Source of the DNA: an uncultured Chlorobiaceae bacterium
Lineage (GTDB): Bacteria; Bacteroidota; Chlorobiia; Chlorobiales; Chlorobiaceae
Length of the DNA: 13,475 bases
NCBI GenBank assembly: GCA_903838095.1
Contig: CAILXE010000264.1
Span: 1 to 13,475, forward strand
Direction of reading: 5' to 3'
Position numbers and translations under genes: made by a program. Positions 1-13,475 of this stretch are shown here, piece by piece. The notes beneath the pieces are model-generated. The model did no database searches, was not told the origin of the DNA, and saw only the letters and a program-made list of their open reading frames with translations. Each line of letters begins with the position of its first letter. Positions within the stretch are counted from its first letter, which is position 1.

Positions 1-1482
1 AAAGACTACATCCTTGTGATGCTGTTTTTAAAATACATTTCAGACGTCTGGCAGGATCATTACGATACGTATCAGAAGCAGTATGGGGATGATGAGGGAC
101 GAATCCTCCGCAAAATGAAGCGAGAGCGATTTGTTCTGCCGGTTATAACACTGACCGAAAAAAACAGGGAGAGCGGTGAAGAAAAGATTCTTGACAAGTT
201 TCCGGCAACTTATTACAGCCTTTATGAACGCAGGGCAGCGGCCAATATCGGTGAGCTGATCAATATTGTTTTTGATCACATTGAAGAATCCAACAAAGCC
301 AAGCTGGAAGGAGTTTTCCGCAACATTGACTTTAACAGTGAAGCAAACCTCGGCAAGACCAAAGATCGTAACCGACGCCTGAAACAACTGCTGGAAGACT
401 TTTACAAGCCACAGTTGAATATGAAGCCAAGCCTTGTTTCAGAGGATGTTATTGGCAACACCTATATCTATCTGATTGAGCGCTTCGCCTCGGATTCAGG
501 GAAAAAGGCCGGAGAGTTTTTTACCCCGCTTAAAGTGACCGAACTCGTGGCCAAACTCGCCAGCCCCAAACCTGGTGACCGTATTTGTGATCCAGCATGT
601 GGTTCTGGCGGTCTTCTGGTACAGGCGGCCAAAGTGGTCGGTGACCGGAACTTTGCACTGTTCGGTCAGGAGTCCAACGGCAGTACCTGGGCGCTTTGCC
701 GTATGAATATGTTTCTTCACAGTTTCGACAGTGCCCGCATCGAGTGGTGCGACACCCTGAACAGTCCTCTTCTGGTGGAAAATGACCGCCTGATGAAATT
801 CAATTGCGTTGTGGCCAATCCACCATTCTCGCTCGACAAATGGGGAGCTGAAGAGGCCGAAAGTGATCAATTTAACCGTTTCTGGCGCGGGGTTCCTCCC
901 AAAGGGAAAGGGGATTGGGCCTTTATCAGCCACATGATTGAAACAGCGCTTGAAAAAGAGGGTCGAGTTGCCGTGGTTGTCCCTCATGGAGTGCTTTTCA
1001 GGGGTGCTGCTGAGGGGCGCATTCGCCAGAAAATGATCGAAGAAAACCTGCTTGATGCAGTCATCGGGCTGCCGGGCAATCTCTTTCCAACCACCAACAT
1101 CCCGGTGGCGATTCTGGTTTTTGACAGAAGCCGGGAACGACCTGGGAACGCCGAGCCCCAGCTTGGCAATGTACTCTTCATTGATGCGAGCCGTGAGTTT
1201 GTTTCTGGCAAAAATCAGAATACGCTCAGTGCAGCGCATCTCGACAAGATTATAGGTACCTACAAAGAGCGCAAAGAGGTCGAAAAATATGCCCATGTGG
1301 CCGAGTTCGCCGAGATCAGGGAAAACGACTTCAACCTCAATATTCCTCGCTACGTAGATACCTTTGAAGAGGAAGAGGAGATTGATATTGATGCCGTACA
1401 GGCGGAGATTGACAAACTGGAACAAGAGCTGGCAGAGGTGCGCCTGACGATGGCTGCAAAGCTCAAGGAGATTCAGCGATGA
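1..1482 (+). CDS. hsdM: Type I RM methyltransferase subunit HsdM (5' partial)
   Basis: N6-adenine DNA methyltransferase subunit of a type I RM system; with HsdS it methylates the recognition site using S-adenosylmethionine. The reading frame is open from base 1 (KDYILVMLFLKYISD, a typical HsdM N-terminal helix), so the GTG/ATG at 16/19 are internal and the gene is cut by the window edge; family lengths suggest roughly 30 residues are missing. Counting from base 1, motif I is DPACGSGG starting at residue 197 (AdoMet binding) and the catalytic N6-adenine motif NPPF is encoded at 817-828. SGKKAGEFFTPLKVTELVAKL just before motif I is the family-typical N6_Mtase entry. The C-terminus is an acidic stretch followed by a Glu/Lys-rich coiled coil (about 1370-1480), as expected for contact with HsdS. 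No frameshift is seen. Its stop overlaps the ATG of a degraded KilA-N ORF, not hsdS, which lies 2.4 kb downstream. Confidence 0.96.
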   Translation, partial: KDYILVMLFLKYISDVWQDHYDTYQKQYGDDEGRILRKMKRERFVLPVITLTEKNRESGEEKILDKFPATYYSLYERRAAANIGELINIVFDHIEESNKAKLEGVFRNIDFNSEANLGKTKDRNRRLKQLLEDFYKPQLNMKPSLVSEDVIGNTYIYLIERFASDSGKKAGEFFTPLKVTELVAKLASPKPGDRICDPACGSGGLLVQAAKVVGDRNFALFGQESNGSTWALCRMNMFLHSFDSARIEWCDTLNSPLLVENDRLMKFNCVVANPPFSLDKWGAEEAESDQFNRFWRGVPPKGKGDWAFISHMIETALEKEGRVAVVVPHGVLFRGAAEGRIRQKMIEENLLDAVIGLPGNLFPTTNIPVAILVFDRSRERPGNAEPQLGNVLFIDASREFVSGKNQNTLSAAHLDKIIGTYKERKEVEKYAHVAEFAEIRENDFNLNIPRYVDTFEEEEEIDIDAVQAEIDKLEQELAEVRLTMAAKLKEIQR

Positions 1483-1628
1483 AGACGAAAAGGGTGGAAT
1501 TTGAGCCGTTTAGTTTTAATCCCATCGAATTCGATGCGGTTGCAAAGACTGTTGGTAAGCACCGTAATCCGGATTTTAATTATGTCGAATATGCCACAAT
1601 TAGAAATCAGGCAGGATTGAACAGTTAA
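1479..1628 (+). pseudogene. KilA-N-like gene fragment (N-terminal remnant)
   Basis: A 49-codon ORF starts with an ATGA overlap on the hsdM stop. Its product contains FNPIEFDAV and then FNYVEYATIRNQAGL. The second segment aligns with the KilA-N core seen again at 1774-1830 (FNSPEFEEIKNEAGL), sharing the pattern F-N-x-x-E-aromatic-x-x-I-basic-N-x-A-G-L. The ORF stops right after this segment, where intact KilA-N proteins continue into a longer DNA-binding fold, so it is a truncated relic. The overlap with hsdM suggests a full KilA-N gene was once coupled to hsdM. KilA-N domains occur in phage antirepressor-type proteins and are often found beside type I RM genes. Family assignment is by motif recall only. 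Confidence 0.55.
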
Positions 1629-1645
1629 AAAATCAGTGTCAAGGA

Positions 1646-1759
1646 ATGTGTAGCAAAAACCAGCAAGTCATTCTTGGTAAGAATATTGCGTCTCTTTATG
1701 AGGTACTACCCATTCGGCTTAGAGAGCAGGTACAGCGTAATATTGAGCGCTTCCCCTGA
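1646..1759 (+). pseudogene. ORF6N-domain gene fragment with frameshift
   Basis: This short frame encodes VILGKNIASLYEV and QVQRNIERFP and then stops. It matches the start of the ORF6N domain in the intact gene at 2886 (VMLDRDLARIYDVETRAF, AVKRNIERFP) at equivalent spacing. The frame breaks at a run of four C (1753-1756): removing one C would read ERFPEDL, the usual ORF6N continuation, so a +1 insertion is the likely lesion. Almost at once the sequence switches to a KilA-N coding frame. No ribosome binding site or credible start is seen. Diverged from the intact copy, so an independent relic rather than a recent duplicate. Confidence 0.6.
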
Positions 1760-1920
1760 AGATTTACAACGAACATTTTAATTCCCCCGAATTCGAGGAA
1801 ATTAAAAACGAGGCAGGCTTGAAACGTTTTGTGTTATCGGTTAAGCTGTGGGTAGAAAAAACAGGTTCTATTGGTATCGTTGCCAAAGCAGGTTATCCGT
1901 TCTCTATTTTCAACTGTTAA
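1759..1920 (+). pseudogene. KilA-N domain gene fragment (truncated both ends)
   Basis: Frame 1 encodes KIYNEHFNSPEFEEIKNEAG, then LKRFVLSVKLWVEKTGSIGI and VAKAG. This is the conserved KilA-N core of proteins that normally continue RYGGT and 'AFEFASWISPEF'. Here homology ends at the KAG (about 1891) and the frame reads YPFSIFNC then stop. The 5' side is missing too: a stop (1744) lies just upstream and the preceding sequence is ORF6N-derived. So it is an internal piece left by deletion on both sides. Its start shares an 18/21 nt direct repeat with the first KilA-N remnant (1514-1534 and 1776-1796), consistent with recombination between related copies. Confidence 0.65.
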
Positions 1921-1940
1921 TTTTTAAAGGAGATGTTGCC

Positions 1941-2810
1941 ATGAGCAGCAAGGAGATAGAAAAAAAACATCACCAGACTTTTGAGGAGATTAAGCAGACT
2001 GCTGGAAATGGCAAAGAGTTTTGGACGGCTCGAAAGCTTTCAAAAACACTGGATTATTCTGAGTATCGTCATTTTATTCCTGTTGTTGAAAGGGCGAAAG
2101 AAGCCTGTCAAAACAGCGGTCATGGAGTGGCAGACCATTTCGAGGATGTCCTCGATATGGTCGAAATTGGCTCGGGAGCCAAGCGAACTCTTGAAGATAT
2201 AAGACTTTCCCGTTATGCCTGCTACCTGATTGTTCAGAACGCTGACCCATCAAAACCGGTAATCGCCAACGGCCAGACCTATTTTGCCATCCAGACCCGC
2301 AGACAGGAATTGGCTGACGATGAGGATTTCAAACGACTCAAGGAGGAGGAAAAACGGCTCTTTCTTCGTGACGAAATGCGCGTTCACAACAAACAATTAG
2401 TGGAAACTGCTCATCAGGCGGGAGTGGAAACCACTCTCGATTTTGCCATTTTTCAAAATCATTGCTACAAAGGGCTTTATGGTGGACTTGATGCCAAGGG
2501 TATTCATCAACACAAAGGTCTGAAAAAAAGTCAGCATATTCTTGATAATATGGGCAGTACTGAGTTGGCAGCCAACCTCTTCCGTGCTACGCAGACAGAG
2601 GAAAAACTTCGCCGGGAACATATTCATGGTAAGATTAGAGCCAATCAGACCCATTTTGATGTCGGTAAAAAAGTACGCCAGACCATCAAGGAACTGGGTG
2701 GTACCATGCCAGAAGATTTGCCGAAACCAGAAGAGGATCTGAAAAAGCTGGAGCGGCGGGCGCAATTATCGGAGAAGAAACTGGGAGGAGGAAGCAATGA
2801 GCATGAATAG
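1941..2810 (+). CDS. dinD: DinD, DNA-damage-inducible protein D homologue
   Basis: Full-length 289-residue DinD (E. coli about 274). ATG 1941 is chosen over the upstream in-frame GTG at 1848 because an AAAGGAGA site lies at 1926-1933 and the DinD-like sequence begins there; the 93 nt between belong to the KilA-N relic. Very well conserved blocks include YSEYRHFIPVVERAKEACQN, LSRYACYLIVQNADPSKPVI, GQTYFAIQTRRQELADDE, MGSTELAANLFRATQTEEKL, and THFDVGKKVRQTIKELGGTM. In E. coli dinD is SOS-induced and the protein acts on RecA filaments, inhibiting strand exchange. No convincing LexA box of the E. coli type lies upstream here. Placed between hsdM and hsdS, it may adjust RecA activity on restricted DNA, which is inference. 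The C-terminal tail is charged and likely coiled coil, and its end resembles the 3' end of the next gene. Confidence 0.93.
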   Translation: MSSKEIEKKHHQTFEEIKQTAGNGKEFWTARKLSKTLDYSEYRHFIPVVERAKEACQNSGHGVADHFEDVLDMVEIGSGAKRTLEDIRLSRYACYLIVQNADPSKPVIANGQTYFAIQTRRQELADDEDFKRLKEEEKRLFLRDEMRVHNKQLVETAHQAGVETTLDFAIFQNHCYKGLYGGLDAKGIHQHKGLKKSQHILDNMGSTELAANLFRATQTEEKLRREHIHGKIRANQTHFDVGKKVRQTIKELGGTMPEDLPKPEEDLKKLERRAQLSEKKLGGGSNEHE

Positions 2811-2889
2811 AACAGGATCAAGAATGGGAAAAAGTCTTGCAACGATGCGGGTAAAGAGGGCTGAAACCCTCACGGAGATCCGGAAATGA
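2797..2889 (+). CDS. Possible 30-aa coupling ORF between dinD and ORF6N gene
   Basis: An ATG at 2797, preceded by a strong GGGAGGAGGAAGC ribosome binding site inside the dinD 3' end, opens a 30-codon basic ORF (MSMNRTGSRMGKSLATMRVK...). Its TGA (2887-2889) overlaps the ATG of the ORF6N gene at 2886 as ATGA. The strong SD and overlaps at both ends suggest a translational bridge that carries ribosomes from dinD into the ORF6N gene. No protein family is recognised, and it could be fortuitous: dinD ends in GGGSNEHE, which itself requires a purine-rich sequence. Existence as a protein is doubtful. Confidence 0.3.
   Translation: MSMNRTGSRMGKSLATMRVKRAETLTEIRK
2856..2871 (+). promoter_or_regulatory. 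Small hairpin just before the ORF6N gene RBS
   Basis: GAGGG (2856-2860) and CCCTC (2867-2871) are perfect complements around a 6-nt loop CTGAAA, followed directly by the GGAGATC ribosome binding site of the gene starting at 2886. There is no T-run, so it is not an intrinsic terminator. It could influence translation or RNA processing between dinD and the downstream gene. A 5-bp stem can occur by chance. Confidence 0.25.
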
Positions 2890-3845
2890 GCGAAAACAAG
2901 CAAATGATTCCTTTTGATAAAATCCAAAGTATGATTTTTACTATCCGTGGCGTTCAGGTGATGCTGGATCGTGACTTGGCTCGAATTTATGACGTTGAAA
3001 CCCGAGCCTTCAATCAGGCGGTAAAAAGAAATATTGAACGTTTTCCTGAGGCTTTCAGATTTGAGCTGACTTTTGATGAGTATGAATACATGAAATCACA
3101 AATTGAGACCTCATGTGCTTACGATAACTCTTTAAGATCACAGACTGTGATCTTAAAGAGTGGTGGGCGAGGTCAGCATAGAAAATATCTCCCCTCTGTT
3201 TTTACGGAACAGGGCGTCTCCATGCTTTCTGCTGTGATTAAAAGCGCAACAGCGATCAAGGTGAGTATAAAAATTGTTAACGCATTTGTGGAGATGCGCC
3301 GTTTTATTCAGACCAATGCTCAGGTGTTTGCCCGTTTGGATTCTGTCGAACGCCGTCAGATTGCATTGGAATCCGAAACGGAAAGAAATTTTGAAAAGGT
3401 GTTTCAGGCACTGGAACAAGGACCGGAACTCCCCAGACAGGGTATATTCTATGATGGGCAGGTGTACGATGCGCATGTTTTCGTATCCGATCTGATCCGC
3501 AGTGCCAGAAAAAGCTTGATTTTGATTGATAACTATGTTGATGATTCTGTTCTGACGCTGCTTGGCAAACGGGCAGAGGGTGTAACCGCTCTTATGTACA
3601 CCAAATCTGTTTCAAAACAGCTCTCTCTAGATTTGAAGAAGTACAATCAGCAGTACCCCACTATTTCAATTGAAACCTTCATGGGTGCTCACGACCGTTT
3701 TCTCATAATCGATGGAACTGACATTTATCACATCGGCGCATCGCTCAAAGACTTGGGGAAAAAATGGTTCGCTTTTTCAAAGTTTGAAACCGGTGCTGTG
3801 GAGATGTTGAATAAACTGGGAGGCTGTTCAAATGAAATCAGATAG
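2886..3845 (+). CDS. ORF6N-domain protein with PLD-like C-terminal domain
   Basis: A 319-residue protein. Residues about 8-120 form an ORF6N domain (IRGVQVMLDRDLARIYDVET, AVKRNIERFPEAFRFELT, KYLPSVFTEQGVSMLSAVI), a likely DNA-binding module common in phage antirepressor-type proteins and beside RM genes. Residues about 125-180 are helical and charged. The C-terminal part (about 190-305) has the pattern of a phospholipase D-like fold: ILIDNYVDDSVLTLL, then H269-x-R271-x4-D276 in GAHDRFLIIDG, then HIGASLKDLGKKW. The HxRx4D differs from canonical HxKx4D by Lys to Arg, so catalysis is uncertain and a single motif would need a dimer. ATG 2886 follows GGAGATCCGGAA. The gene sits between dinD and hsdS. 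Codons 81-92 coincide with a perfect 17-bp inverted repeat. The product may regulate the locus or act as an accessory nuclease; neither is proven. Confidence 0.85.
   Translation: MSENKQMIPFDKIQSMIFTIRGVQVMLDRDLARIYDVETRAFNQAVKRNIERFPEAFRFELTFDEYEYMKSQIETSCAYDNSLRSQTVILKSGGRGQHRKYLPSVFTEQGVSMLSAVIKSATAIKVSIKIVNAFVEMRRFIQTNAQVFARLDSVERRQIALESETERNFEKVFQALEQGPELPRQGIFYDGQVYDAHVFVSDLIRSARKSLILIDNYVDDSVLTLLGKRAEGVTALMYTKSVSKQLSLDLKKYNQQYPTISIETFMGAHDRFLIIDGTDIYHIGASLKDLGKKWFAFSKFETGAVEMLNKLGGCSNEIR
3127..3161 (+). repeat. Perfect 17-bp inverted repeat inside the ORF6N gene
   Basis: The left arm ACTCTTTAAGATCACAG (3127-3143) is the exact reverse complement of the right arm CTGTGATCTTAAAGAGT (3145-3161), around a single A at 3144. 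Both arms are coding (N81-S92, read as NSLRSQ and TVILKS), and the frame is kept. A 35-nt palindrome this perfect is very unlikely by chance. It can form a cruciform in DNA or a strong hairpin in RNA, and there is no T-run to make it a terminator. It could be an operator bound by the ORF6N protein or a recombination scar. Confidence 0.9.
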
Positions 3846-3857
3846 AAGGGAATCAAG

Positions 3858-3889
3858 AATGGATAATGGTCAATGGATAATTGATAATG
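3858..3889 (+). repeat. AT-rich tandem repeat, period 14, upstream of hsdS
   Basis: AATGGATAATGGTC (3858-3871) is followed directly by AATGGATAATTGAT (3872-3885) and the start of a third unit, AATG. The first ten bases of the units are identical. The tract lies in the 78-nt gap between the ORF6N gene and hsdS, about 35 nt before the hsdS ribosome binding site. It could be a slippage-prone spacer, part of a promoter region or a dispersed intergenic repeat. No clear -35/-10 pair is seen in it. Confidence 0.5.
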
Positions 3890-3923
3890 CCTTGTTCTGT
3901 CAATTAAGTGAGGAGAGGCAGTG

Positions 3924-5129
3924 ATGAAAAATACACAAGCTCTTCTAAAGAAAGCTCGGATTTCATTTGTCCCGGAAAAATGGACGATTTCAATTGTAGG
4001 GGATGCTTGCTCAATTAGAAACGACTTACGCAAGCCAATCAGTATAGAGGAACGTGCATCAATTCAAGGTGTATATCCTTATTATGGCCCAACTGGAATT
4101 TTAGATTATATCAATGAATTTATGGTAGAAGGCGAGTTTTCATTGATTGGTGAAGATGGCGATCATTTTCTAAAACCAGATGAGAAGCCGCAGACAATTT
4201 TAGTACAAGGAAAATTTAATGTAAATAATCATGCGCACTTGATAGCGTCGTCACCGACTTGCTATGCGCATTGGTTTTCAATGTTCTTTAAGCATAGAAA
4301 AATTACCGACTTTCTGAGTAGACAAGGCGCAAATAGATATAAGCTGAATAAAGCAACATTAGAAAAATTGCCAATTCTTCTTCCTCCACTTATCGAACAA
4401 CAAGCGATTGCCGATTTGCTCTCAACTTGGGATGAGGCTATAGAGAAAATTGAACGGCTGATTCGGGCGAAAGAAAAGCGATTTAAGCGCTTCCTGAATG
4501 ATCTTATTTTTCTACCTACAGTGAGTGGGGAATGGAAAGAGATACTAACTAAGTCGCTTTTCAAAGAACGAACAGAATCAAAGCGAGGTGATTTGCCGCT
4601 TCTCTCCATAACAAATGGTGATGGAGTGATTCCTCGTGATGAGACAAACAGGAAAGACTCATCCAACGAAGATAAATCAAAATATCTTCGAATTTGCGCC
4701 GGAGATATCGGCTATAATACAATGAGGATGTGGCAAGGTGTCTCAGCTCTTTCAACCTTGGAAGGCATCGTAAGTCCTGCTTATACAGTTTGTATCACAG
4801 GAGAGAAACTTCACCCTTCATTTGTTGCGTATTTGTTCAAGATGCCGTTTATGATTCATCGATTTTACAGATATTCTCAGGGTTTAACATCAGATACATG
4901 GAATTTGAAGTATCGAAATTTCTGCGAAGTTAGAATGCCTCTTCCATCACTTGACGAACAGAAGGTAATAGCCGAGACCCTGAATTCTGCCCGAAACGAA
5001 ATTGATATCCTCAAGCAATTACTGGAAAAATATAAATCGCAGAAACGCGGGCTGATGCAGAAGATGCTCACCGGTACATGGAGGGTAACGCCCGAATTTG
5101 TTAATACCTACGAGGAGGCCCGTGGATGA
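3924..5129 (+). CDS. hsdS: Type I RM specificity subunit HsdS
   Basis: A 401-residue specificity subunit that recognises a bipartite DNA target. ATG 3924 is preferred over the adjacent GTG 3921, since AGGAGAGG (3911-3918) is spaced 5 nt before it. The two-fold layout is clear. TRD1 covers about residues 15-150 and ends in NRYKLNKATLEKLPILLPPL. The central conserved region EQQAIADLLSTWDEAIEKIE (E158 onward) is helical. TRD2 covers about 195-340. The C-terminal conserved region LPSLDEQKVIAETLNSARNE (near residue 345) ends in KSQKRGLMQKMLTGTWRV. The two conserved helices are diverged repeats (EQQAIADLL and EQKVIAETL), so the half-targets should differ. Only one hsdS and no inverted partial copy is present, so there is no sign of TRD shuffling. 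The target sequence cannot be predicted. Its last 4 nt overlap the OLD nuclease gene. Confidence 0.95.
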   Translation: MKNTQALLKKARISFVPEKWTISIVGDACSIRNDLRKPISIEERASIQGVYPYYGPTGILDYINEFMVEGEFSLIGEDGDHFLKPDEKPQTILVQGKFNVNNHAHLIASSPTCYAHWFSMFFKHRKITDFLSRQGANRYKLNKATLEKLPILLPPLIEQQAIADLLSTWDEAIEKIERLIRAKEKRFKRFLNDLIFLPTVSGEWKEILTKSLFKERTESKRGDLPLLSITNGDGVIPRDETNRKDSSNEDKSKYLRICAGDIGYNTMRMWQGVSALSTLEGIVSPAYTVCITGEKLHPSFVAYLFKMPFMIHRFYRYSQGLTSDTWNLKYRNFCEVRMPLPSLDEQKVIAETLNSARNEIDILKQLLEKYKSQKRGLMQKMLTGTWRVTPEFVNTYEEARG

Positions 5130-7411
5130 AAATAGCATTTATTGATATTCAGAATTTCAGGAAGCTCAAGAGATGTCGTGTAGAGTTTTCTGACACGAAA
5201 ACGGTGTTTGTTGGAGCGAATAACAGTGGGAAAACTTCAGCAATGGATGCCTTAATGGTGTTCCTTAAGAAATCACGACGTAAAGATTTGTCAACAACGG
5301 ATTTTACGCTTTCAAACTGGCGAGGGATCAATAAAATAGCAAAAGACTGGATTGAGAGCCAGAAGCCTGACGACTTGAACCTGAGTTCTGAGGCTTGGTA
5401 CTCGTATGCTCCTTCAATAGATGTTTGGCTCCATGTAGAAGATAATGAAATTCATTATGTGAGTCATATCATTCCAACACTTGATTGGTCAGGAGGAAAA
5501 CTTGGGGTTCGACTGGTGTTTGAACCGAAGAACCTCGAGGAGCTATATAAGGCTTACAAATCAGCATTTGAAGCGGCAAAAAATACCAGTGAGTCAAGAG
5601 AAAACGGTACATCATTAAAGCTATGGCCACAATCAATGCGGGATTTTCTGGAGAAAGAACTACATCGGCATTTCACAGTTAACGCTTATATTCTTGATCC
5701 TTCAAAATCTACGAAAGAAATTACTCAGAATCTTCCTGCGAATTCAGAGCCTATTGATGGTGATCCATTTGATGGTTTATTCAAAATTGACATCATAAAC
5801 GCACAGCGGGGATTTTCTGACCCTAATTCAGGGGATGGCGGTTTAAACAACGACAGGAGACTCTCCACTCAACTCAGAGGATATTTTGATACACATCTTA
5901 ATCCATCTGAATTACCGGATGTCAGTGATCTTGACGCATTGGAAGCAATTGATACAGCTCGAAAGGCTTTTGATGCCAAACTGAAGGAGAGTTTTAAGGC
6001 ATCAATCGGTGAATTGGAAGGTTTAAATTATCCGGGTTTTAGTGACCCTAAGATAGAAATATCCAGCAAAGTAGATCCATTGGAAGGGCTCAATCATGAT
6101 TCTGCCATTCAGTTTAATGTACAACGGGGTGATTCAAGCGCTGACGAAATTTCGTTGTGTCTCCCAGAGAAGTATAACGGCTTAGGTTATCAAAATCTAA
6201 TATCAATGATTTTCAACCTGATTCGCTTTCGTGATGAGTGGATGCAAGTTGGTAAAGCCGGTAAACGGAATGATTCCAATGACGATTTTATTGAACCACT
6301 ACACATTGTTTTGATTGAGGAACCAGAAGCACACTTACATGCTCAGGTACAGCAAGTCTTTATTAAAAAGGCATATGACGTTTTGAGAAATAATAAAGAC
6401 CTTGGAAAAAATACCCATTTTTCCACTCAATTGGTTATAAGTACGCATTCAAGCCATATCGCACATGAAATTGATTTTATAAGCTTGCGCTATTTCAAGC
6501 GTAAGCCCGCTACCGATGTAAACGATGTACCATGTGCTGAAGTGGTTAACCTTTCAAGTGTTTTTGGCAAAAAAGATGATGCTACCGCTAAATTTGCAAC
6601 CCGATATCTGAAAACCACACATTGTGATCTGTTTTTTGCTGATGCAGCTATACTTATAGAAGGGCCTGCTGAACGTATGCTGGTTCCGTATTTTATCTGT
6701 AAGAATTTCCCGGAATTGGATCGCTGTTACATTTCTCTGTTGGAAATTAGCGGCAGTCATGCACATCGGCTGAGACCGTTAATCGAGACATTGGGATTAC
6801 TGACGTTGGTCATTACGGATCTGGATTCTCTGAAAAAGGAGCAGGTAACTGATGAAAAAACCGGCAAAACTAAGCCCAAGATTTCAAAGATTTTGCCGGA
6901 AAAAGGTAAAAACTATGAGACAGGCAACGATACTATAAAATCTTGGGTTCCAGAAGAAAAGGATCTGGATAAAGTTCTTGAAACAGGTCCCGATAACAAG
7001 GTCAAAGGAGGAATTGTCAGGGTTGCATACCAATATCAGATAGATCTGAAATTCAACGGTACAGAAGTAAGCGCTATCCCTTATACGTTTGAAGATGCCG
7101 TTGTTCTGAGCAATGTCGATTTGTTTAAGGAAAAGTCTAGTTCGACAGGTTTACTGAAAAAGATGGTAGATGCTGTCAATCTGCCATCGGTTCAAGAGGC
7201 ATGCCACAAAATGTTTGAGGATCTATCCCAGAACAGCAAAAAAGCTGAAATGGCCTTGGAACTCCTTTATACATCGGAACCCGGAGAGATGAGCCCCCCC
7301 CAATATATTGCCGAAGGACTCAAATGGCTTGAAGAAAGGCTGCTTCATCGTAACGCCGACTATATTCTTCAGGAAGATACGGAAATTAAAGGAGCTCAAA
7401 ATGAGCAATAA
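5126..7411 (+). CDS. OLD-family ATPase/TOPRIM nuclease (Gabija GajA-like, class 2 OLD)
   Basis: A 761-residue ABC-type ATPase fused to a TOPRIM nuclease. Walker A is G30-ANNSGKT37. A signature-like GLGYQNL lies at 352-358, Walker B is HIVLIEEPEAHLH (E398, E399), and an H-loop STHSSHIAHEIDF follows. The TOPRIM domain begins around residue 500 with ILIEGPAER (E512, E516) and continues to ITDLDSL (D565, D567), so the metal-binding acidic residues are present. A Lys/Thr-rich insertion (KTGKTKPKISKI) follows the DLD, then a long C-terminal region. The start ATG overlaps the hsdS stop (ATGA). OLD proteins beside a UvrD-type helicase are called class 2 and this is the Gabija composition (ATP-regulated DNA nickase plus helicase). 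At 761 residues it is clearly longer than the described Gabija GajA (about 580), so it is a divergent relative. Function in phage defence is inferred from family and setting. Confidence 0.88.
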   Translation: MKIAFIDIQNFRKLKRCRVEFSDTKTVFVGANNSGKTSAMDALMVFLKKSRRKDLSTTDFTLSNWRGINKIAKDWIESQKPDDLNLSSEAWYSYAPSIDVWLHVEDNEIHYVSHIIPTLDWSGGKLGVRLVFEPKNLEELYKAYKSAFEAAKNTSESRENGTSLKLWPQSMRDFLEKELHRHFTVNAYILDPSKSTKEITQNLPANSEPIDGDPFDGLFKIDIINAQRGFSDPNSGDGGLNNDRRLSTQLRGYFDTHLNPSELPDVSDLDALEAIDTARKAFDAKLKESFKASIGELEGLNYPGFSDPKIEISSKVDPLEGLNHDSAIQFNVQRGDSSADEISLCLPEKYNGLGYQNLISMIFNLIRFRDEWMQVGKAGKRNDSNDDFIEPLHIVLIEEPEAHLHAQVQQVFIKKAYDVLRNNKDLGKNTHFSTQLVISTHSSHIAHEIDFISLRYFKRKPATDVNDVPCAEVVNLSSVFGKKDDATAKFATRYLKTTHCDLFFADAAILIEGPAERMLVPYFICKNFPELDRCYISLLEISGSHAHRLRPLIETLGLLTLVITDLDSLKKEQVTDEKTGKTKPKISKILPEKGKNYETGNDTIKSWVPEEKDLDKVLETGPDNKVKGGIVRVAYQYQIDLKFNGTEVSAIPYTFEDAVVLSNVDLFKEKSSSTGLLKKMVDAVNLPSVQEACHKMFEDLSQNSKKAEMALELLYTSEPGEMSPPQYIAEGLKWLEERLLHRNADYILQEDTEIKGAQNEQ

Positions 7412-9296
7412 CGCTGGATCTCCATCGGTTAATGATGAGATCTACGCATGTCTCGACCTCGATAATCCCAAAAGCTTTTTTCTTTTCGCTGGAGCAGGAT
7501 CAGGAAAAACACGAAGTCTTGTTGAGGTTTTAAAGCAATTTCGGCAAAATAACATTAAACGATTACGCACAAGCGGTAAAAAGGTTGCCATCATAACTTA
7601 TACAAATGCTGCATGTGATGAGATCAAACGTCGCCTTGATTTCGATTCTGCTTTTTATGTTTCAACTATTCACAGTTTCGCGTGGGAACTGATCAAGCCT
7701 TATACCGATGATATCAAGAAATGGGTAAGATTGTCGCTTGAAACGGAAATAGCTGATTTCGAAGCGAAACAAGGCGGAGCCAGAAGCCCGATTTCTAAAA
7801 CCTATATTGATCGTGCAAGAAAGATCGAATCGAAAAAAAGGCGACTGGATGCCTTGCCCTTGATCAAAAAATTCATATACAATCCGAATGGCGATAACAT
7901 TGGGCAGGATTCGCTGAATCATACCGAGGTAATTAGTATTTCAGCCGACTTCATACATAACCGCCCACTTATGCAAAGCATTTTGGTTCGGAAATATCCC
8001 ATTTTACTAATTGATGAGAGCCAAGATACGAAGAAAGAGCTTATGGAAGCATTTTTCAAGGTGCAGGAACAAAATTTTGATTGTTTTTCGCTAGGCATGT
8101 TCGGAGATACAATGCAGCGTATTTACACCGATGGAAAACCGGATCTCGGCGAAGGGATTCCTGATTCATGGGCAAAACCATCGAAAACCATCAATTACCG
8201 ATGCCCAAAACGCGTAATCAAGCTTATTAACAAGATACGGGCTGATGTGGATGGAAAGAAACAGGAGCCCGGCAAGGATGAAGAAGGTGTTGTTCGTTTT
8301 TTTATTGTGGATACGAGTCGGTTCGATGACAAGGCTATGATTGAAGCTGAATTGTCGTCAGCAATGGTCATTTGCACTGGCGACCATGAGTGGACACCTT
8401 CCTTGTCGGTGATCAAGGTATTGACACTTGAACATCATATGGCTGCTTCGCGTGGTGGCTTCTCGCAGTTTTTTGATTCTCTTTATGCTGTGGATAAATA
8501 CAAAACAGGTCTCCTCGATGGAACGTTGTCCAGTGCGACCTTGTTCGCGAATCAAGTTCTTCCGCTTATTGATGCGAAGATCTCTGGAGAAGAGTTCGCG
8601 GTATCAAGCATCGTTCGTAAATATTCTCCTCTGCTAAAAAAGGATGTACTCAAGGTCAGCGAAAAACCGGTTGAAATTATACGTGCTGCTGGCTTAGCTG
8701 CCACAGAATTGTATTCTTTGTGGAAAGATGGTGCCGACCCTTCTTTATCAGATATTCTTAGAGAAGTTCATCGAACGGGACTTTTTCAAGTACCAGAAGC
8801 ACTGTTTCCGATTGCGGAGCGTCTGGGGAAGATTGATGAAGTTTTTGAAGACATAGATGATACAGATCTCGATCCCGTGATTGAGGCATGGGAAACCGCG
8901 TTACAATGTCCGTTCAGTCGGTTTAAAGAATATGTGAAATACATATCCAAAGATTCAATGTTCGGTACGCATCAAGGTGTTAAAGGGTTGGAGTTTCCGC
9001 GAGTCATGGTAATCCTTGATGACGAAGAAGCTCGGGGATTTATGTTCAGCTACGAGAAACTTTTCGGTGCGAAGGATTTATCGGATACTGATCTGCAAAA
9101 CGAAGCACAAGGAAGAGAAACAAGTATTGATCGTACTCGGAGGCTTTTTTATGTCACATGTAGTCGAGCTGAGAAAAGCTTGGCAATAGTAGCATATACT
9201 AAAGAACCTCAGAAAGTTAAACAATATGCTATCGATCAAGCTTGGTTTGATAAGAATGAGATAATTATACTCGGGGAGGCAAAGGGTAATGAGTGA
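7401..9296 (+). CDS. UvrD-like SF1 helicase (Gabija GajB-like partner)
   Basis: A 631-residue superfamily 1A helicase. ATG 7401 is chosen because AAAGGAGC lies just upstream and the following sequence runs straight into the helicase fold; it overlaps the OLD gene by 11 nt. Motifs in order: Walker A G31-AGSGKT37; Ia IITYTNAACDEIKRRL; II IDESQD (D205-D209); III GDTMQRIY (G235 to Y242); IV-like INYRCPKRVIKLINKI; V H524-QGVKGLE531; VI YVTCSRA (Y584-A590). All key catalytic residues are present. The protein is shorter than UvrD/PcrA (about 720), and the region between motifs IV and V has no clear UvrD 2B-like sequence, as in compact Gabija-type helicases. It likely unwinds or senses DNA ends and works with the upstream OLD nuclease. 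Overlap with hsdR by 8 nt ties it to the RM system. Confidence 0.9.
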   Translation: MSNNAGSPSVNDEIYACLDLDNPKSFFLFAGAGSGKTRSLVEVLKQFRQNNIKRLRTSGKKVAIITYTNAACDEIKRRLDFDSAFYVSTIHSFAWELIKPYTDDIKKWVRLSLETEIADFEAKQGGARSPISKTYIDRARKIESKKRRLDALPLIKKFIYNPNGDNIGQDSLNHTEVISISADFIHNRPLMQSILVRKYPILLIDESQDTKKELMEAFFKVQEQNFDCFSLGMFGDTMQRIYTDGKPDLGEGIPDSWAKPSKTINYRCPKRVIKLINKIRADVDGKKQEPGKDEEGVVRFFIVDTSRFDDKAMIEAELSSAMVICTGDHEWTPSLSVIKVLTLEHHMAASRGGFSQFFDSLYAVDKYKTGLLDGTLSSATLFANQVLPLIDAKISGEEFAVSSIVRKYSPLLKKDVLKVSEKPVEIIRAAGLAATELYSLWKDGADPSLSDILREVHRTGLFQVPEALFPIAERLGKIDEVFEDIDDTDLDPVIEAWETALQCPFSRFKEYVKYISKDSMFGTHQGVKGLEFPRVMVILDDEEARGFMFSYEKLFGAKDLSDTDLQNEAQGRETSIDRTRRLFYVTCSRAEKSLAIVAYTKEPQKVKQYAIDQAWFDKNEIIILGEAKGNE

Positions 9297-12200
9297 CTTT
9301 CCGGTAAATGAAAAATATCTTTCTCAAATCCCGGCGGTGCAGTTGCTGGTGGCGATGGGCTACGAATATATCTCCCCGGCTGAAGCGCTTCGTGAACGAC
9401 AGGAGCGAACCTCCAATGTGCTGCTGGAAAATATTTTGCGCACTCAACTGAAGGAGATCAACCGCATCCGTTACAAAGGAGGTGAGTACCTCTTCAGTGA
9501 GGAAAATATTCAGTCGGCGGTGCAGAAGCTGAAAAACATCAAGTATGACGGGCTCCTGAAAACCAATGAAGCGATTTACGATCTGCTCACGCTTGGAGCT
9601 GCCATGGAGCAGATTATCGAGGGTGATTCCAAAAGCTTTAATCTCAACTATATCGACTGGCGGAATGGAGAGCGTAATCGGTTTCATGTAACGGTTGAGT
9701 ATAGTGTTGAGCGCTCCAGAAGCACCGAGTCTGCCCGACCCGACATTGTGCTGTTTGTCAATGGTATTCCATTTTGTGTGATCGAATGCAAATCGCCACA
9801 AGTTGAGATTGATCAGGCTGTTTCGCAGTCCATCAGGAACCAGAACGACGATCATATCCCAAAACTGTTCATTTATACCCAGTTGGTGCTGGCATTGAAC
9901 AAGAACAGTGCCAAGTATGCCACAACGGGGACAGCCGCAAAATTCTGGAGTGTCTGGAAAGAGCCGCAGCTCGAAGCCGGAGGCCGGGAGTTCGGTAAGC
10001 TTCAGGAGATTGTCAACAAGCCGTTGCATAAAGATATTTTTTTTAGCCTTACTCACTCCCTTGACGTTAAGCCTCCTCGGCAGGATGCCGATCGACTTGT
10101 CACGGAGCAGGATAGAGCCCTTTACGCGCTCTGCCGACCGGAGCGACTGCTTGAGCTGACATGGAAGTTTACCGTATTTGATGGCGGGCTGAAAAAGATT
10201 GCCCGTTATCAGCAATATTTTGTGGTTCAATCAACACTGAATCGTGTCAAGCATTTTGACGGAACCGGTTCACGAAAGGGTGGAGTTATCTGGCACACGC
10301 AAGGGTCAGGAAAGTCCCTGACCATGGTCATGCTGGCCCGAAACCTTGCTCTCGACCCGGAGATTCTCAACCCGAGAATTGTACTGGTTACCGATCGGGA
10401 TGATCTGGATAAACAGCTTGGCAATACTTTTGCTGCCTGCGGTCTTGAGGCAGAACGGGCAACTTCGGGCCGCAATCTTCTGGAGTTGGTTGCTGAAAAG
10501 AAATCCGGGATTATCACCACACTTATCCACAAGTTCGACAAGGCTTTTGCCGTAAAGAAGTATCAGGATGACTCCCCGGATATTTTTATTCTTGTCGATG
10601 AAAGCCATCGTACCCAGTTTGGCTCATTTTCTGCCCGGATGCGGCAGATGTTTCCCCATGCTTGCTATTTGGGGTTTACGGGCACTCCGTTATTGAAAAA
10701 GGAGAAAAACAATTTCAGCAGGTTTGGGGAGCTGGTTGAGCCTCATTACTCCATTTCACAGGCGGTAGAAGATGGTGCCGTTGTTCCGCTTTTGTATGAA
10801 GGGCGGCATGTTGAGATGAGCCAGAATCAGGTGGCGGTGGATTTATGGTTCGAGCGCCATACCCAGGGTCTTTCACAACAACAGCAAGCGGATCTCAAAC
10901 GTAAATATGCCAGGGCTGAGATGCTCAACAAGGCAGAACAGGTGATTTACATGAGGGCTTTTGATATTACTGAACACTATCGCGCCAACTGGCAGGGAAC
11001 CGGATTCAAGGCACAGCTTGTTGCTCCCAGTAAAGTGTCTGCTCTTCACTACCATTTCTGCCTTAATGAAATCGGTATCGTTACGTCAGATGTCATTATT
11101 TCTCCGCCAGATATGCGTGAAGGGTATGAAGAGACCGATGATGAGACGACCGATGAGGTTGTGAAATTCTGGCAGAAAATGATGAAGCGCTATGGCAGTG
11201 AAGAGGAGTATACCAAACAGCTCATCAACCAGTTTAAACATGGCAGCGAACCCGAAATATTGATTGTTGTCGACAAGCTGCTGACCGGGTTTGATGCACC
11301 AAGAAATGCAGTTCTCTATTTATGCCGGGTGTTGCGGGAGCATACGTTGCTTCAGGCCATCTCAAGGGTTAACCGCCTCTATGAAGGCAAGGAGTGCGGT
11401 TTTATTATTGATTATGCAAATGTTCTTGGTGAGCTGGATAAAGCCTTGACCATGTACAGCGCCTTTGATGGCTTTGATGAAGCCGACCTGGTTGGCACAC
11501 TGAGCTCGATAAACAGTGAAATTGAAAAATTGCCGGGATACTACTCGGATTTATGGGATCTCTTTAAAACGGTAAAGCACTCTTATGATGAAGAGGCGTA
11601 TGAACTTTTGCTTGCTGATGAAGAGCTGAGAGAGGAGTTCTACAGTCGTCTTGCAGAGTTTGCAAAAACACTGGCCATAGCGCTTTCATCGGAAAAATTT
11701 TTGTCGGATACGGATGAAAAAATCTTGTCGCGCTACAAGGTGGATTTACGAAAATTTCAGGCGCTGAAGGTTTCTGTAAAGCTGAGATATGCGGAGAGCA
11801 TTGATTACCGGGATTATGAGCCAAAGATCAAGAAGCTTCTGGATACTCATATTCAGGCTCATGAGGCCATTCAGCTCAATGAACCGGTCAATATTTTTGA
11901 TGACACGCTCTTCAGTCAACTCAAAGAGGAGCAAGGGATCTATCAGACAAGGAGAACCACCGCATCAAAAGCGGACACGATTGCTCATGCAACCAGGAAA
12001 GTTATTACAGAAAAAATGGATGAGGATCCTGCCTGGTACGAGAAGTTCTCTATACTGGTGCAGCAGGCCATTGATGCTTTCCGAGCCAAAAGAATATCCG
12101 ATCTTGAATACCTGCATTCTGTTGTTGCTCTCAGGAATAAAGTTGTTGGCAAGGTTCATGATGATGTGCCTGATATGCTTTCCGGCAATGAAGATGCCAT

Positions 12201-12507
12201 GGCATATTATGGTGTGTTAAAGCCTTTTATTGAACTGGCAGGCAGAGGTGCAGAGCCACCAAAGAGTGACGCAGTGCTTGAAAATATTACAGCAACTGCG
12301 GCTGTTGCAATACACCTCATTCTTGAAAAGAACAGGAAAGTTCATTTCTGGTATGATGAAGATGCCCAGAAACAAACGGTCAACCAGATTGACGACTATC
12401 TTTATGATGAGTTGAAAACAGAAAAAGGTATTGAGTTGTCACTGGATCAAATGGACGCACTCATCGAAAAGGTCTTGCAAGTGGCAAAACACAGGAGTTA
12501 CAAGTGA
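9289..12507 (+). CDS. hsdR: Type I RM restriction subunit HsdR
   Basis: A 1072-residue restriction and translocation subunit. It starts at ATG 9289 after GGGGAGG (9273-9279), overlapping the helicase gene by 8 nt. The N-terminal HSDR_N domain carries a PD-(D/E)xK nuclease: D152, then E166-C-K168 in VIECKSP. The SF2 motor has Walker A HTQGSGKS (336-343), DESH (437-440), GFTGTPLL, TGFDAP (666-671) and QAISRVNR (689-696). The C-terminal region (about 850-1072) contains the FRAKRISDLEYLHSVVALRN block of the DUF3387-type C-terminal domain that binds the methylase core. With HsdM and HsdS it would pump unmodified DNA and cut at distant sites. No frameshift and no missing motif, so the nuclease is predicted active. 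Unusually, two unrelated genes separate it from hsdS. Its stop overlaps the next gene's GTG start. Confidence 0.97.
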   Translation: MSDFPVNEKYLSQIPAVQLLVAMGYEYISPAEALRERQERTSNVLLENILRTQLKEINRIRYKGGEYLFSEENIQSAVQKLKNIKYDGLLKTNEAIYDLLTLGAAMEQIIEGDSKSFNLNYIDWRNGERNRFHVTVEYSVERSRSTESARPDIVLFVNGIPFCVIECKSPQVEIDQAVSQSIRNQNDDHIPKLFIYTQLVLALNKNSAKYATTGTAAKFWSVWKEPQLEAGGREFGKLQEIVNKPLHKDIFFSLTHSLDVKPPRQDADRLVTEQDRALYALCRPERLLELTWKFTVFDGGLKKIARYQQYFVVQSTLNRVKHFDGTGSRKGGVIWHTQGSGKSLTMVMLARNLALDPEILNPRIVLVTDRDDLDKQLGNTFAACGLEAERATSGRNLLELVAEKKSGIITTLIHKFDKAFAVKKYQDDSPDIFILVDESHRTQFGSFSARMRQMFPHACYLGFTGTPLLKKEKNNFSRFGELVEPHYSISQAVEDGAVVPLLYEGRHVEMSQNQVAVDLWFERHTQGLSQQQQADLKRKYARAEMLNKAEQVIYMRAFDITEHYRANWQGTGFKAQLVAPSKVSALHYHFCLNEIGIVTSDVIISPPDMREGYEETDDETTDEVVKFWQKMMKRYGSEEEYTKQLINQFKHGSEPEILIVVDKLLTGFDAPRNAVLYLCRVLREHTLLQAISRVNRLYEGKECGFIIDYANVLGELDKALTMYSAFDGFDEADLVGTLSSINSEIEKLPGYYSDLWDLFKTVKHSYDEEAYELLLADEELREEFYSRLAEFAKTLAIALSSEKFLSDTDEKILSRYKVDLRKFQALKVSVKLRYAESIDYRDYEPKIKKLLDTHIQAHEAIQLNEPVNIFDDTLFSQLKEEQGIYQTRRTTASKADTIAHATRKVITEKMDEDPAWYEKFSILVQQAIDAFRAKRISDLEYLHSVVALRNKVVGKVHDDVPDMLSGNEDAMAYYGVLKPFIELAGRGAEPPKSDAVLENITATAAVAIHLILEKNRKVHFWYDEDAQKQTVNQIDDYLYDELKTEKGIELSLDQMDALIEKVLQVAKHRSYK

Positions 12508-13229
12508 TTGGTGCAGCAAGGCACGATAACCATTCGTTTCTCTATGGCAACAACGTCATTGATTACACTCTTTTGTATTGTGAGAGAAAGAGTATGGAAG
12601 TTGCGGTTCATCCCGATTGCTCTGTTGTGGTAAAGGTGCCAACTGGTTCGAATATGGTGTTGATTGAGACGAAGATTAACAAAAGAGCCCGATGGATTCT
12701 CCAGCAACAGAGCTACTTCAGGCAGTTTACTCCGAAGACTCCTGAGCGATGTTATCTCAATGGTGAAACCCACCTCTATCTTGGCAGACAATATCGCCTG
12801 AAAATTGCCCGGGGAGATGAGAATAGTGTCAAGTTGTCCAGAGGTTTTTTTCATGTTACCCTGCGAGAGGAGCCCAATCAGGAAAGAGCAAAAAAATTGT
12901 TGAGCAAATGGTATGTAACGAAAGCCTCTCTGCAGTTCAATGAAAGCCTTGATCGTTGCTGGCCCAGGTTTGCCCGCTTTGCATTTCCAAAACCAGCACT
13001 ATCTATCAAGCAGATGCAGAAGCGATGGGGAAGCCTCTCTGACAAAGGTACGGTGACCCTCAATACCAATCTGGTTAAAGCGCCAAAGGAGTGTATTGAT
13101 TACGTTGTTACCCATGAACTCTGCCACTTGAAGCATCCTGATCACAGCTCAGAGTTTTACAAACTCCTTGATACTGTAATTCCAGGCTGGGAAAAAGTAA
13201 AACACAAACTTGAATTGGGTATGGTTTGA
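12504..13229 (+). CDS. YgjP/DUF45-type zinc metallopeptidase (HExxH)
   Basis: A 241-residue protein starting at GTG 12504, which overlaps the hsdR stop as GTGA; AGGAG at 12493-12497 supports this start. The C-terminal half has the YgjP-like signature: QMQKRWGSLSDKGTVTLNTN, then YVVTHELCHLKHPDHSSEFY with zinc ligands H204-E-L-C-H208 and a probable third ligand H214. WGSC-like and HExxH blocks place it in the YgjP/SprT-like (DUF45, M48-related) family. There is no signal peptide or membrane segment, so it is cytoplasmic. Genes of this family often follow hsdR in type I operons, but their role there is not settled. In E. coli, HsdR is proteolytically controlled (by ClpXP) to limit self-restriction; a similar role for this peptidase is inference. 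Confidence 0.9.
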   Translation: MIGAARHDNHSFLYGNNVIDYTLLYCERKSMEVAVHPDCSVVVKVPTGSNMVLIETKINKRARWILQQQSYFRQFTPKTPERCYLNGETHLYLGRQYRLKIARGDENSVKLSRGFFHVTLREEPNQERAKKLLSKWYVTKASLQFNESLDRCWPRFARFAFPKPALSIKQMQKRWGSLSDKGTVTLNTNLVKAPKECIDYVVTHELCHLKHPDHSSEFYKLLDTVIPGWEKVKHKLELGMV

Positions 13230-13321
13230 GTACGAGGAATCTGTTTCCCGTGCCAGGCACGCGTAGCTTATGGCAAAAAGCTCTTGCCGAGACTGACGGT
13301 ATGTCGTTGGTAAAGGAGGAA
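13230..13321. other. Convergent intergenic region with weak hairpins
   Basis: Ninety-two nt between the peptidase stop and the stop of the convergent gene. Two small inverted repeats are visible: CGTGCCAGGCACG (13249-13261), a perfect 13-nt palindrome around one A, and GGCAA/TTGCC (13272-13276 and 13284-13288). Neither is followed by a clear T-run on either strand, so a rho-independent terminator is not established. An AAAGGAGGAA stretch at 13312-13321 looks like a ribosome binding site, but no start codon follows it. Confidence 0.4.
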
Positions 13322-13475
13322 TTATTTCAAGTAGATAAGTGTCCTTGCAATTTGGTCTCTTAATTCAGGCGACACTGCTGCTTCATCAGCATACGTTTTC
13401 CATTGTGCTACCGCTGCATTGATTTCGTCAATTGCCTCTTTTGCTTTTTTATTGTTGATGGATTTACCAATGATT
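13322..13475 (-). CDS. C-terminus of a HipA-like toxin kinase (partial)
   Basis: On the minus strand a frame is open from the window end to a TAA at 13322-13324, giving 50 residues: IIGKSINNKKAKEAIDEINA, AVAQWKTYADEAAVSPELRD and a short tail ending in LIYLK. The pattern (a helix, then 'AVAxW..(F/Y)A.EA.VS', then a last helix) is that of the C-terminal tail of HipA-family serine/threonine kinases, the toxins of HipBA toxin-antitoxin modules. No catalytic motif is within the window. It is transcribed toward the RM operon and is probably not part of it. The assignment rests on a short tail and could be wrong. Confidence 0.5.
   Translation of the reverse strand, partial: IIGKSINNKKAKEAIDEINAAVAQWKTYADEAAVSPELRDQIARTLIYLK

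Follow-up and report, generated by a model that had tools for sequence, protein, structure and literature searches.

The window examined here, 13,475 nucleotides from an uncultured Chlorobiaceae bacterium, is one whole contig (CAILXE010000264.1, C264 in our set) of a 2.37-Mb assembly of 518 contigs. The host is probably a green sulfur bacterium, perhaps a Chlorobium: its genome has a match above cut-off to PF02327, the FMO protein family that marks such bacteria (42.7 bits, covering only 27 residues), and none of 14 control genomes has one. Within a type I restriction-modification (RM) operon it carries gajA and gajB, a Gabija defence pair with a long GajA, between the specificity gene hsdS and the restriction gene hsdR. 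The pair is better read as exchangeable cargo than as a new machine. Very probably, it occupies the hsdS-hsdR slot on its own as such cargo and constitutes a separate second layer of defence beside the type I enzyme. The elements of this explanation that derive from the sequence are the identity of the two proteins, their intact motifs, the gene overlaps, the variability of the slot and the change of its contents as whole blocks.

Identity and arrangement of the gajAB pair

The coordinates in the initial annotation of this DNA were correct. On the + strand, gajA extends from an ATG at 5126 to a stop at 7411 (761 amino acids) and gajB from an ATG at 7401 to a stop at 9296 (631 amino acids), between hsdS (3921..5129) and hsdR (9289..12507). 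GajA consists of an ABC ATPase domain (AAA_15) followed by a TOPRIM nuclease domain (OLD-like_TOPRIM) with the E...E and DxD motifs, and GajB is a UvrD-like SF1 helicase (UvrD-helicase). Residues E512, E516, D565 and D567 of GajA, earlier described as intact, were invariant across 55 aligned GajA rows that include the window; so were K36, E398, E399 and H441. GajB, earlier described as a complete helicase, keeps Walker A residues G31, G33, G35, K36 and T37 together with D205/E206, all invariant in 48 rows.

Both proteins matched PADLOC profiles nearly end to end: PDLC00093 matched GajA with 951.7 bits (profile positions 1-729 of 736) and PDLC00111 matched GajB with 816.5 bits (positions 6-623 of 625). 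Solved GajA structures were the top matches in a fold search with the GajA model. These profile matches, the gene order and the GajA fold support the Gabija identity that had been suggested. The window shares with Gabija of B. cereus VD045 an ABC ATPase-TOPRIM nuclease and a UvrD-like helicase, their gene order, the TOPRIM E/DxD residues and the GajA fold. It differs in protein length (GajA 761 versus ~578 amino acids, GajB 631 versus ~494), in its weak sequence similarity and in the location of the pair inside an hsd operon.

GajA had also been called larger than described GajA proteins, and possibly a distinct subtype. The size difference is real in comparison with the solved B. cereus chains (575-675 amino acids deposited) but not in comparison with PADLOC-DB (2023), whose two best-matching GajA models have 736 and 752 positions. 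The long form is already catalogued there. A hitherto uncatalogued GajA subtype was rejected, as PADLOC-DB holds models of long GajA and GajB. Low similarity to characterised Gabija, and a GajA ~180 and a GajB ~130 residues longer than the solved pair, would also fit an OLD-helicase system of different function that is Gabija-like in appearance only. We consider this very unlikely: PADLOC GajA and GajB models of near-equal length score above 800 bits, the fold search places GajA structures first for GajA, and gajB follows gajA in 79 of 80 genome loci described below, the contig of the remaining locus stopping after gajA.

The open reading frames (ORFs) overlap from hsdS to a YgjP-like metallopeptidase gene at the operon end (12504..13229, + strand; Pfam PF01863, 191.3 bits): hsdS-gajA by 4 bp, gajA-gajB by 11 bp, gajB-hsdR by 8 bp and hsdR-metallopeptidase by 4 bp. 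Shine-Dalgarno-like stretches precede the overlapping starts of gajB and hsdR. The overlaps suggest one operon with coupled translation, and gajAB would be expressed from the hsd operon through co-transcription and translational coupling. A promoter scan of the window was uninformative (22 sites versus 22.2 expected); a terminator scan returned 21 sites versus 12.2 expected, many of them within genes. The intact state of both ORFs, with motifs kept and with overlapping starts and Shine-Dalgarno-like stretches before gajB and hsdR, argues against a neutral or decaying passenger without current function. That explanation could draw on the incomplete host genome assembly, on a frameshifted gajB in one relative (L022) and on two stops in gajA of another (L137), and we find it scarcely credible.

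Cargo exchange in sibling operons

Of 98 genomes of the class, 16 (among them that of the window) encode a close HsdR (E 1e-100), and 12 of the other 15 genomes served as the sibling set. Sibling HsdR proteins were 77-98% identical to that of the window. At E 1e-5, gajA and gajB were absent from all 12 sibling loci. In nine of the 12, hsdS and hsdR both flanked the slot, and all nine slots carried cargo; the three incomplete slots comprised two cut at the contig start (L125, L130) and one without detectable hsdS (L127). The nine complete slots contained 1-10 ORFs of at least 70 amino acids in 1,075-8,540 bp, compared with 4,159 bp in the window, and their first cargo ORF started -11 to +88 bp from the hsdS stop.

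Cargo proteins were named by Pfam (20 proteins) and PADLOC (10 proteins) scans, and the others by BLASTP against those. The 8.5-kb cargo of L126 (genome G027; 5417-13415) comprised a complete QatABCD together with DUF2188, Fic, a shortened RhuM and PDC-M29AB. DUF2188, an AAA PDC-S06 protein and Fic were found in L123, the same three with RhuM in L131, and a longer AAA PDC-S06 protein with RhuM in L128. L124 carried PDC-M29AB, Fic, RhuM and a 23S-IVP-like gene. A Y1 transposase was accompanied by PDC-M29AB in L121, by Fic and RhuM in L132, and by a HAD-family gene and RhuM in L129, and L122 contained RhuM only. The window slot is therefore a case of embedded defence, with defence genes between hsdS and hsdR where siblings have other cargo.

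The limits of the exchanged segment were visible in blastn comparisons. Window and L121 were 97.3% identical over 3,942 bp from 9288, one base ahead of the hsdR start, and no match longer than 60 bp was found between the hsdS 3' end and 9288. The right-hand homology block began at 9282-9288 in six of the 12 sibling loci and at 9322 in the other six, giving a cargo-exchange boundary at 9282..9322 (+ strand) where homology to operons lacking gajAB restarts. On the left side, hsdS 3' homology stopped at window 5074-5119 in the nine sibling loci having hsdS 3' sequence. Because homology restarts in the first codons of hsdR, cargo appears to have been swapped as whole blocks. Homologous recombination in the flanks, that is, in the conserved hsdS 3' end and in hsdR, would be the simplest route for such block exchange. 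The first dozen HsdR codons (window 9289-9340) occurred in two main versions among the siblings, which only partly tracked the adjacent cargo.

These operons bear on the proposal in the initial annotation that gajAB and the RM complex form one composite system. In siblings, an HsdR as much as 98% identical to that of the window accompanies quite different cargo, and the composite is mostly unsupported.

Relatives of gajAB and their linkage to hsd genes

A scan of genome contigs for GajA yielded at least 581 stretches with at least 370 relatives, and the best 80 loci were analysed, with flank genes sought by profiles built from the window's proteins. Nesting between hsdS and hsdR was seen in one of the 80 (L022) and type I homologues in the flanks of seven (L022, L037, L043, L045, L074, L084, L097), both counts being lower bounds because 17 of the loci have less than 1.5 kb on one side. 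Eco57I-type enzymes were additionally present in the flanks of L054 and L080. Among 73 nearest upstream genes phage integrase was most frequent (six), and Methylase_S occurred once (L022). The 73 nearest downstream genes included N6_Mtase in four, Eco57I in four and HSDR_N in two; one of the N6_Mtase entries is hsdM of L097, which was substituted for a 101-amino-acid ORF.

Other collections gave a similar picture. In the incomplete gene tables of eight plasmid neighbourhoods (of 100 matching records), neither hsdS nor a full hsdR was annotated next to gajAB, and plasmid locus L013 had an HsdR N-terminal-domain gene 89 bp upstream of gajAB. None of 63 viral gajAB loci was nested in tblastn searches with window proteins, by which divergent hsdS can be missed. 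In the phylum sample of the window, five of 394 genomes matched at E 1e-150, counting the window's own and G072, a genome of the same genus; the three further matches (L135-L137) had only short stretches around gajA, and these contained no hsd gene. One of 245 genomes in the phylum group of L022 matched, namely that of L022 itself. Nesting is thus not conserved in the tabulated neighbourhoods. Homologues lie mostly away from hsd genes, the pattern that the initial annotation had named beforehand as speaking against its composite system. A composite-only system as the default was rejected on the rarity of nesting among the loci analysed and on the sharing of the slot with other cargo.

Several loci showed other arrangements. 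Photorhabdus bodei carries two gajAB pairs in tandem (L025:3365-11200). In L054:6868-10631, gajA directly follows an M.Eco57I-type gene with a 1-bp overlap, and in L074:48-4531 it starts 14 bp after an HsdR with an EcoR124_C domain. An IMG/VR contig (L155:2-5347) contains the C-terminal part of HsdR, a YgjP-like gene and, ~30 bp on, a distant gajA-gajB (27% identity), a type I-Gabija neighbourhood with a different gene position from that of the window.

The nearest relatives exhibited a closer association with hsdS. L022, from a metagenome-assembled genome of the FCB group, has the hsdS-gajA-gajB-hsdR order of the window and an identical 4-bp hsdS-gajA overlap. Its GajA is 68% identical to that of the window, its GajB 72% in two pieces (frameshifted), its HsdS 33% and its HsdR 64.5% over the first 352 residues, where the contig ends. 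The L022 host belongs to a different phylum group of the genome collection (245 genomes) from that of the window host; its RpoB fragment shares 70% identity with that of the window host, and 19 of 20 genomes compared gave 62-76%. G072 has a GajA 86% identical to that of the window and an adjoining Eco57I-type enzyme pair, on a 12.6-kb contig without an hsd operon. Identity between window 5055-9266 and G072 was 87.3% (blastn), starting 71 bp ahead of gajA. By blastn and alignment, the hsdS 3' end of the window (5055..5129, + strand) is also retained before gajA in G072 (L102:7529-7603), as a remnant of ~25 codons in which the stop and the ATGA junction are kept.

This fossil indicates that the G072 copy was formerly linked to hsdS. 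That the hsdS tail is a mere leader of the gajAB cassette was rejected: siblings lacking gajAB share the hsdS 3' end as far as window 5074-5119, indicating that the remnant belongs to hsdS. In a careful GajA tree of 20 hand-chosen rows, window, G072 and L022 fell on one side of a branch with support of 94/95 (not starred) that recurred in 91% of 200 bootstrap trees. The three again shared one branch in a quick tree of 59 rows (SH-like approximate likelihood ratio test, 94). Of these three copies two are nested (window and L022) and G072 has the hsdS fossil only. Present or past linkage to the hsdS 3' end in the three nearest GajA copies suggests that nesting is heritable in a small clade. The closest reading of these sequences is that this gajAB lineage has long been linked to hsdS and has probably moved with or via an hsdS flank.

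The linkage also bears on a functional form of the composite, in which both systems would work on the same DNA and GajAB would take charge of its ends after cleavage or stalling by HsdR, chiefly when a phage end-binding protein excludes RecBCD. The tight overlaps from hsdS to hsdR would suit it, as would the same order in L022 although host RpoB identity is just 70%, and the licensing of Gabija by blocked DNA ends described in published excerpts. The available text of PMC11411939 adds that tgvAB alone protects 10-100-fold less than the full type I cluster against several phages. However, the same type of HsdR occurs with unrelated cargo, hsd genes are absent from the available flanks of most GajAB loci analysed, and the 86% copy in G072 lies on a contig without the operon. 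We regard a functional composite as improbable.

Proposed action, known systems and neighbouring genes

Under the favoured explanation of exchangeable cargo, Gabija would be a separate second layer to type I restriction. The type I enzyme would supply recognition by missing methylation, and Gabija would catch DNA that escapes this enzyme or has shielded ends. By analogy with published Gabija, GajA-GajB would most likely target foreign linear DNA whose ends are unprocessed by RecBCD, for example where a phage end-binding protein blocks them. In the portions available of PMC12407980 (a preprint) and PMC12904381, phage end-binding proteins are proposed to license Gabija, which would stop the circularisation of linear DNA on which RecBCD does not act. 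The host genome encodes a full-length RecB above the family cut-off (928.5 bits; six of 13 genomes searched were above it), so a RecBCD-related condition for licensing would be present here.

Several points weigh against this explanation. It is derived from sequence, and the action assigned to the pair is taken over from published Gabija. Structural alignment with solved GajA gave about 20% identity, whole-chain TM-scores to GajA in the fold search were only 0.35-0.6, and sequence comparison gave 35 bits; with such strong divergence of the long GajA from those studied, a mechanism tied to RecBCD may not apply to it. In the fold search with the GajB model, solved GajB (8sm3_B) ranked 39 (E 1.2e-12), below UvrD/PcrA/Rep. 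The recurrent hsdS linkage of window, L022 and G072 exceeds purely stand-alone behaviour, and exchange by homologous recombination is deduced from breakpoints only.

A PrrC-like role as guardian of restriction would have Gabija respond to phage inhibition of the type I enzyme, e.g. by the DNA mimic Ocr. PrrC is itself part of a type I locus whose inhibition it detects (PMC12707154, in part), and according to the introduction of PMC12255303, sensing of Ocr activates PARIS, Gabija and Zorya II. In the available text of PMC12407980 and PMC12904381, however, Gabija is described as triggered once RecBCD no longer acts on DNA ends, and Ocr appears as a PARIS trigger or an RM/BREX inhibitor. Most GajAB loci examined also lack type I genes in their available flanks. 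We regard a guardian role as quite unlikely.

Direct cooperation between Gabija and HsdR at HsdR-made ends is an attractive possibility. A wider model, which we consider doubtful, would treat the hsdS-hsdR slot of this genus as an exchange site for defence modules such as Gabija, Qat, Fic and RhuM, with recombination arms in the conserved hsdS 3' and hsdR 5' ends, one promoter and the type I enzyme as anchor. Its Gabija version would add cooperation, in which Gabija acts, under a RecBCD block, on ends that HsdR has produced or left behind.

Earlier publications describe DarTG2, TgvAB and RloF as cargo located between hsdS and hsdR; the comparisons that follow draw on excerpts of the cited papers. 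DarTG2, in the RRDM island of E. coli E2348/69, occupies the same slot, and a metallopeptidase gene follows the type I operon (PMC12255303). That island differs in its toxin-antitoxin cargo, in the repressor gene rptR in front and in its M48 metallopeptidase, which is YgjP-like in the window. The same source reports an RNA-binding/ATPase pair in this place in four genomes and terms the site a potential recombination hotspot. TgvAB (V. cholerae VPI-2) and RloF (Campylobacter) are likewise defence genes between hsdR and hsdS of a type I operon, and TgvAB, like Gabija, is a pair and protects on its own; these are GmrSD-like or DUF262 proteins, not Gabija (PMC11411939). PrrC in ecoprrI is an accessory defence gene within a type I locus, as in the window, but is a tRNA nuclease triggered by restriction inhibition (PMC12707154). 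No report of Gabija in the hsdS-hsdR slot was found in the available text of the open-licence PMC literature searched. The window thus adds Gabija to the cargo types of this slot. It also provides a clean comparative set of operons whose HsdR identity reaches 98%, whose cargo differs wholly and whose breakpoints lie at the first codons of hsdR. With this set, both the block-exchange route and any benefit to a nested system, other than shared expression, of residing in its restriction host become testable.

The window genes hsdM, hsdS and hsdR share the + strand and have the expected type I RM domains. The contig starts within hsdM (1..1482), which has lost its 5' end at the contig edge (493 amino acids versus 522-523 in siblings) and matched Pfam N6_Mtase (339.5 bits), HsdM_N and, above cut-off, NCBIfam TIGR00497. 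Methylase_S matched hsdS in two stretches, the hsdS stop overlapping the gajA start, and hsdR has HSDR_N, SWI2_SNF2 and T1R_D3-like domains with TIGR00348 above cut-off. The hsdM-hsdS gap (1483-3920) is a second variable slot. In the window it contains, on the + strand, a dinD-like gene (1938..2810; NCBIfam NF008573, 477.7 bits; PADLOC PDC-S13) and an ORF6N-domain gene (2886..3845; Pfam PF10543, 105.5 bits; PADLOC PDC-S05). DinD and/or KilA-N, some of them fragments, were found in this gap in siblings L121, L124, L126, L127, L128, L131 and L132, and neither was found in that of L129. A short stretch within HsdM (window 1141-1164), possibly a repeat dispersed through the genus, recurs in L121 close to where the Y1-transposase ORF starts.

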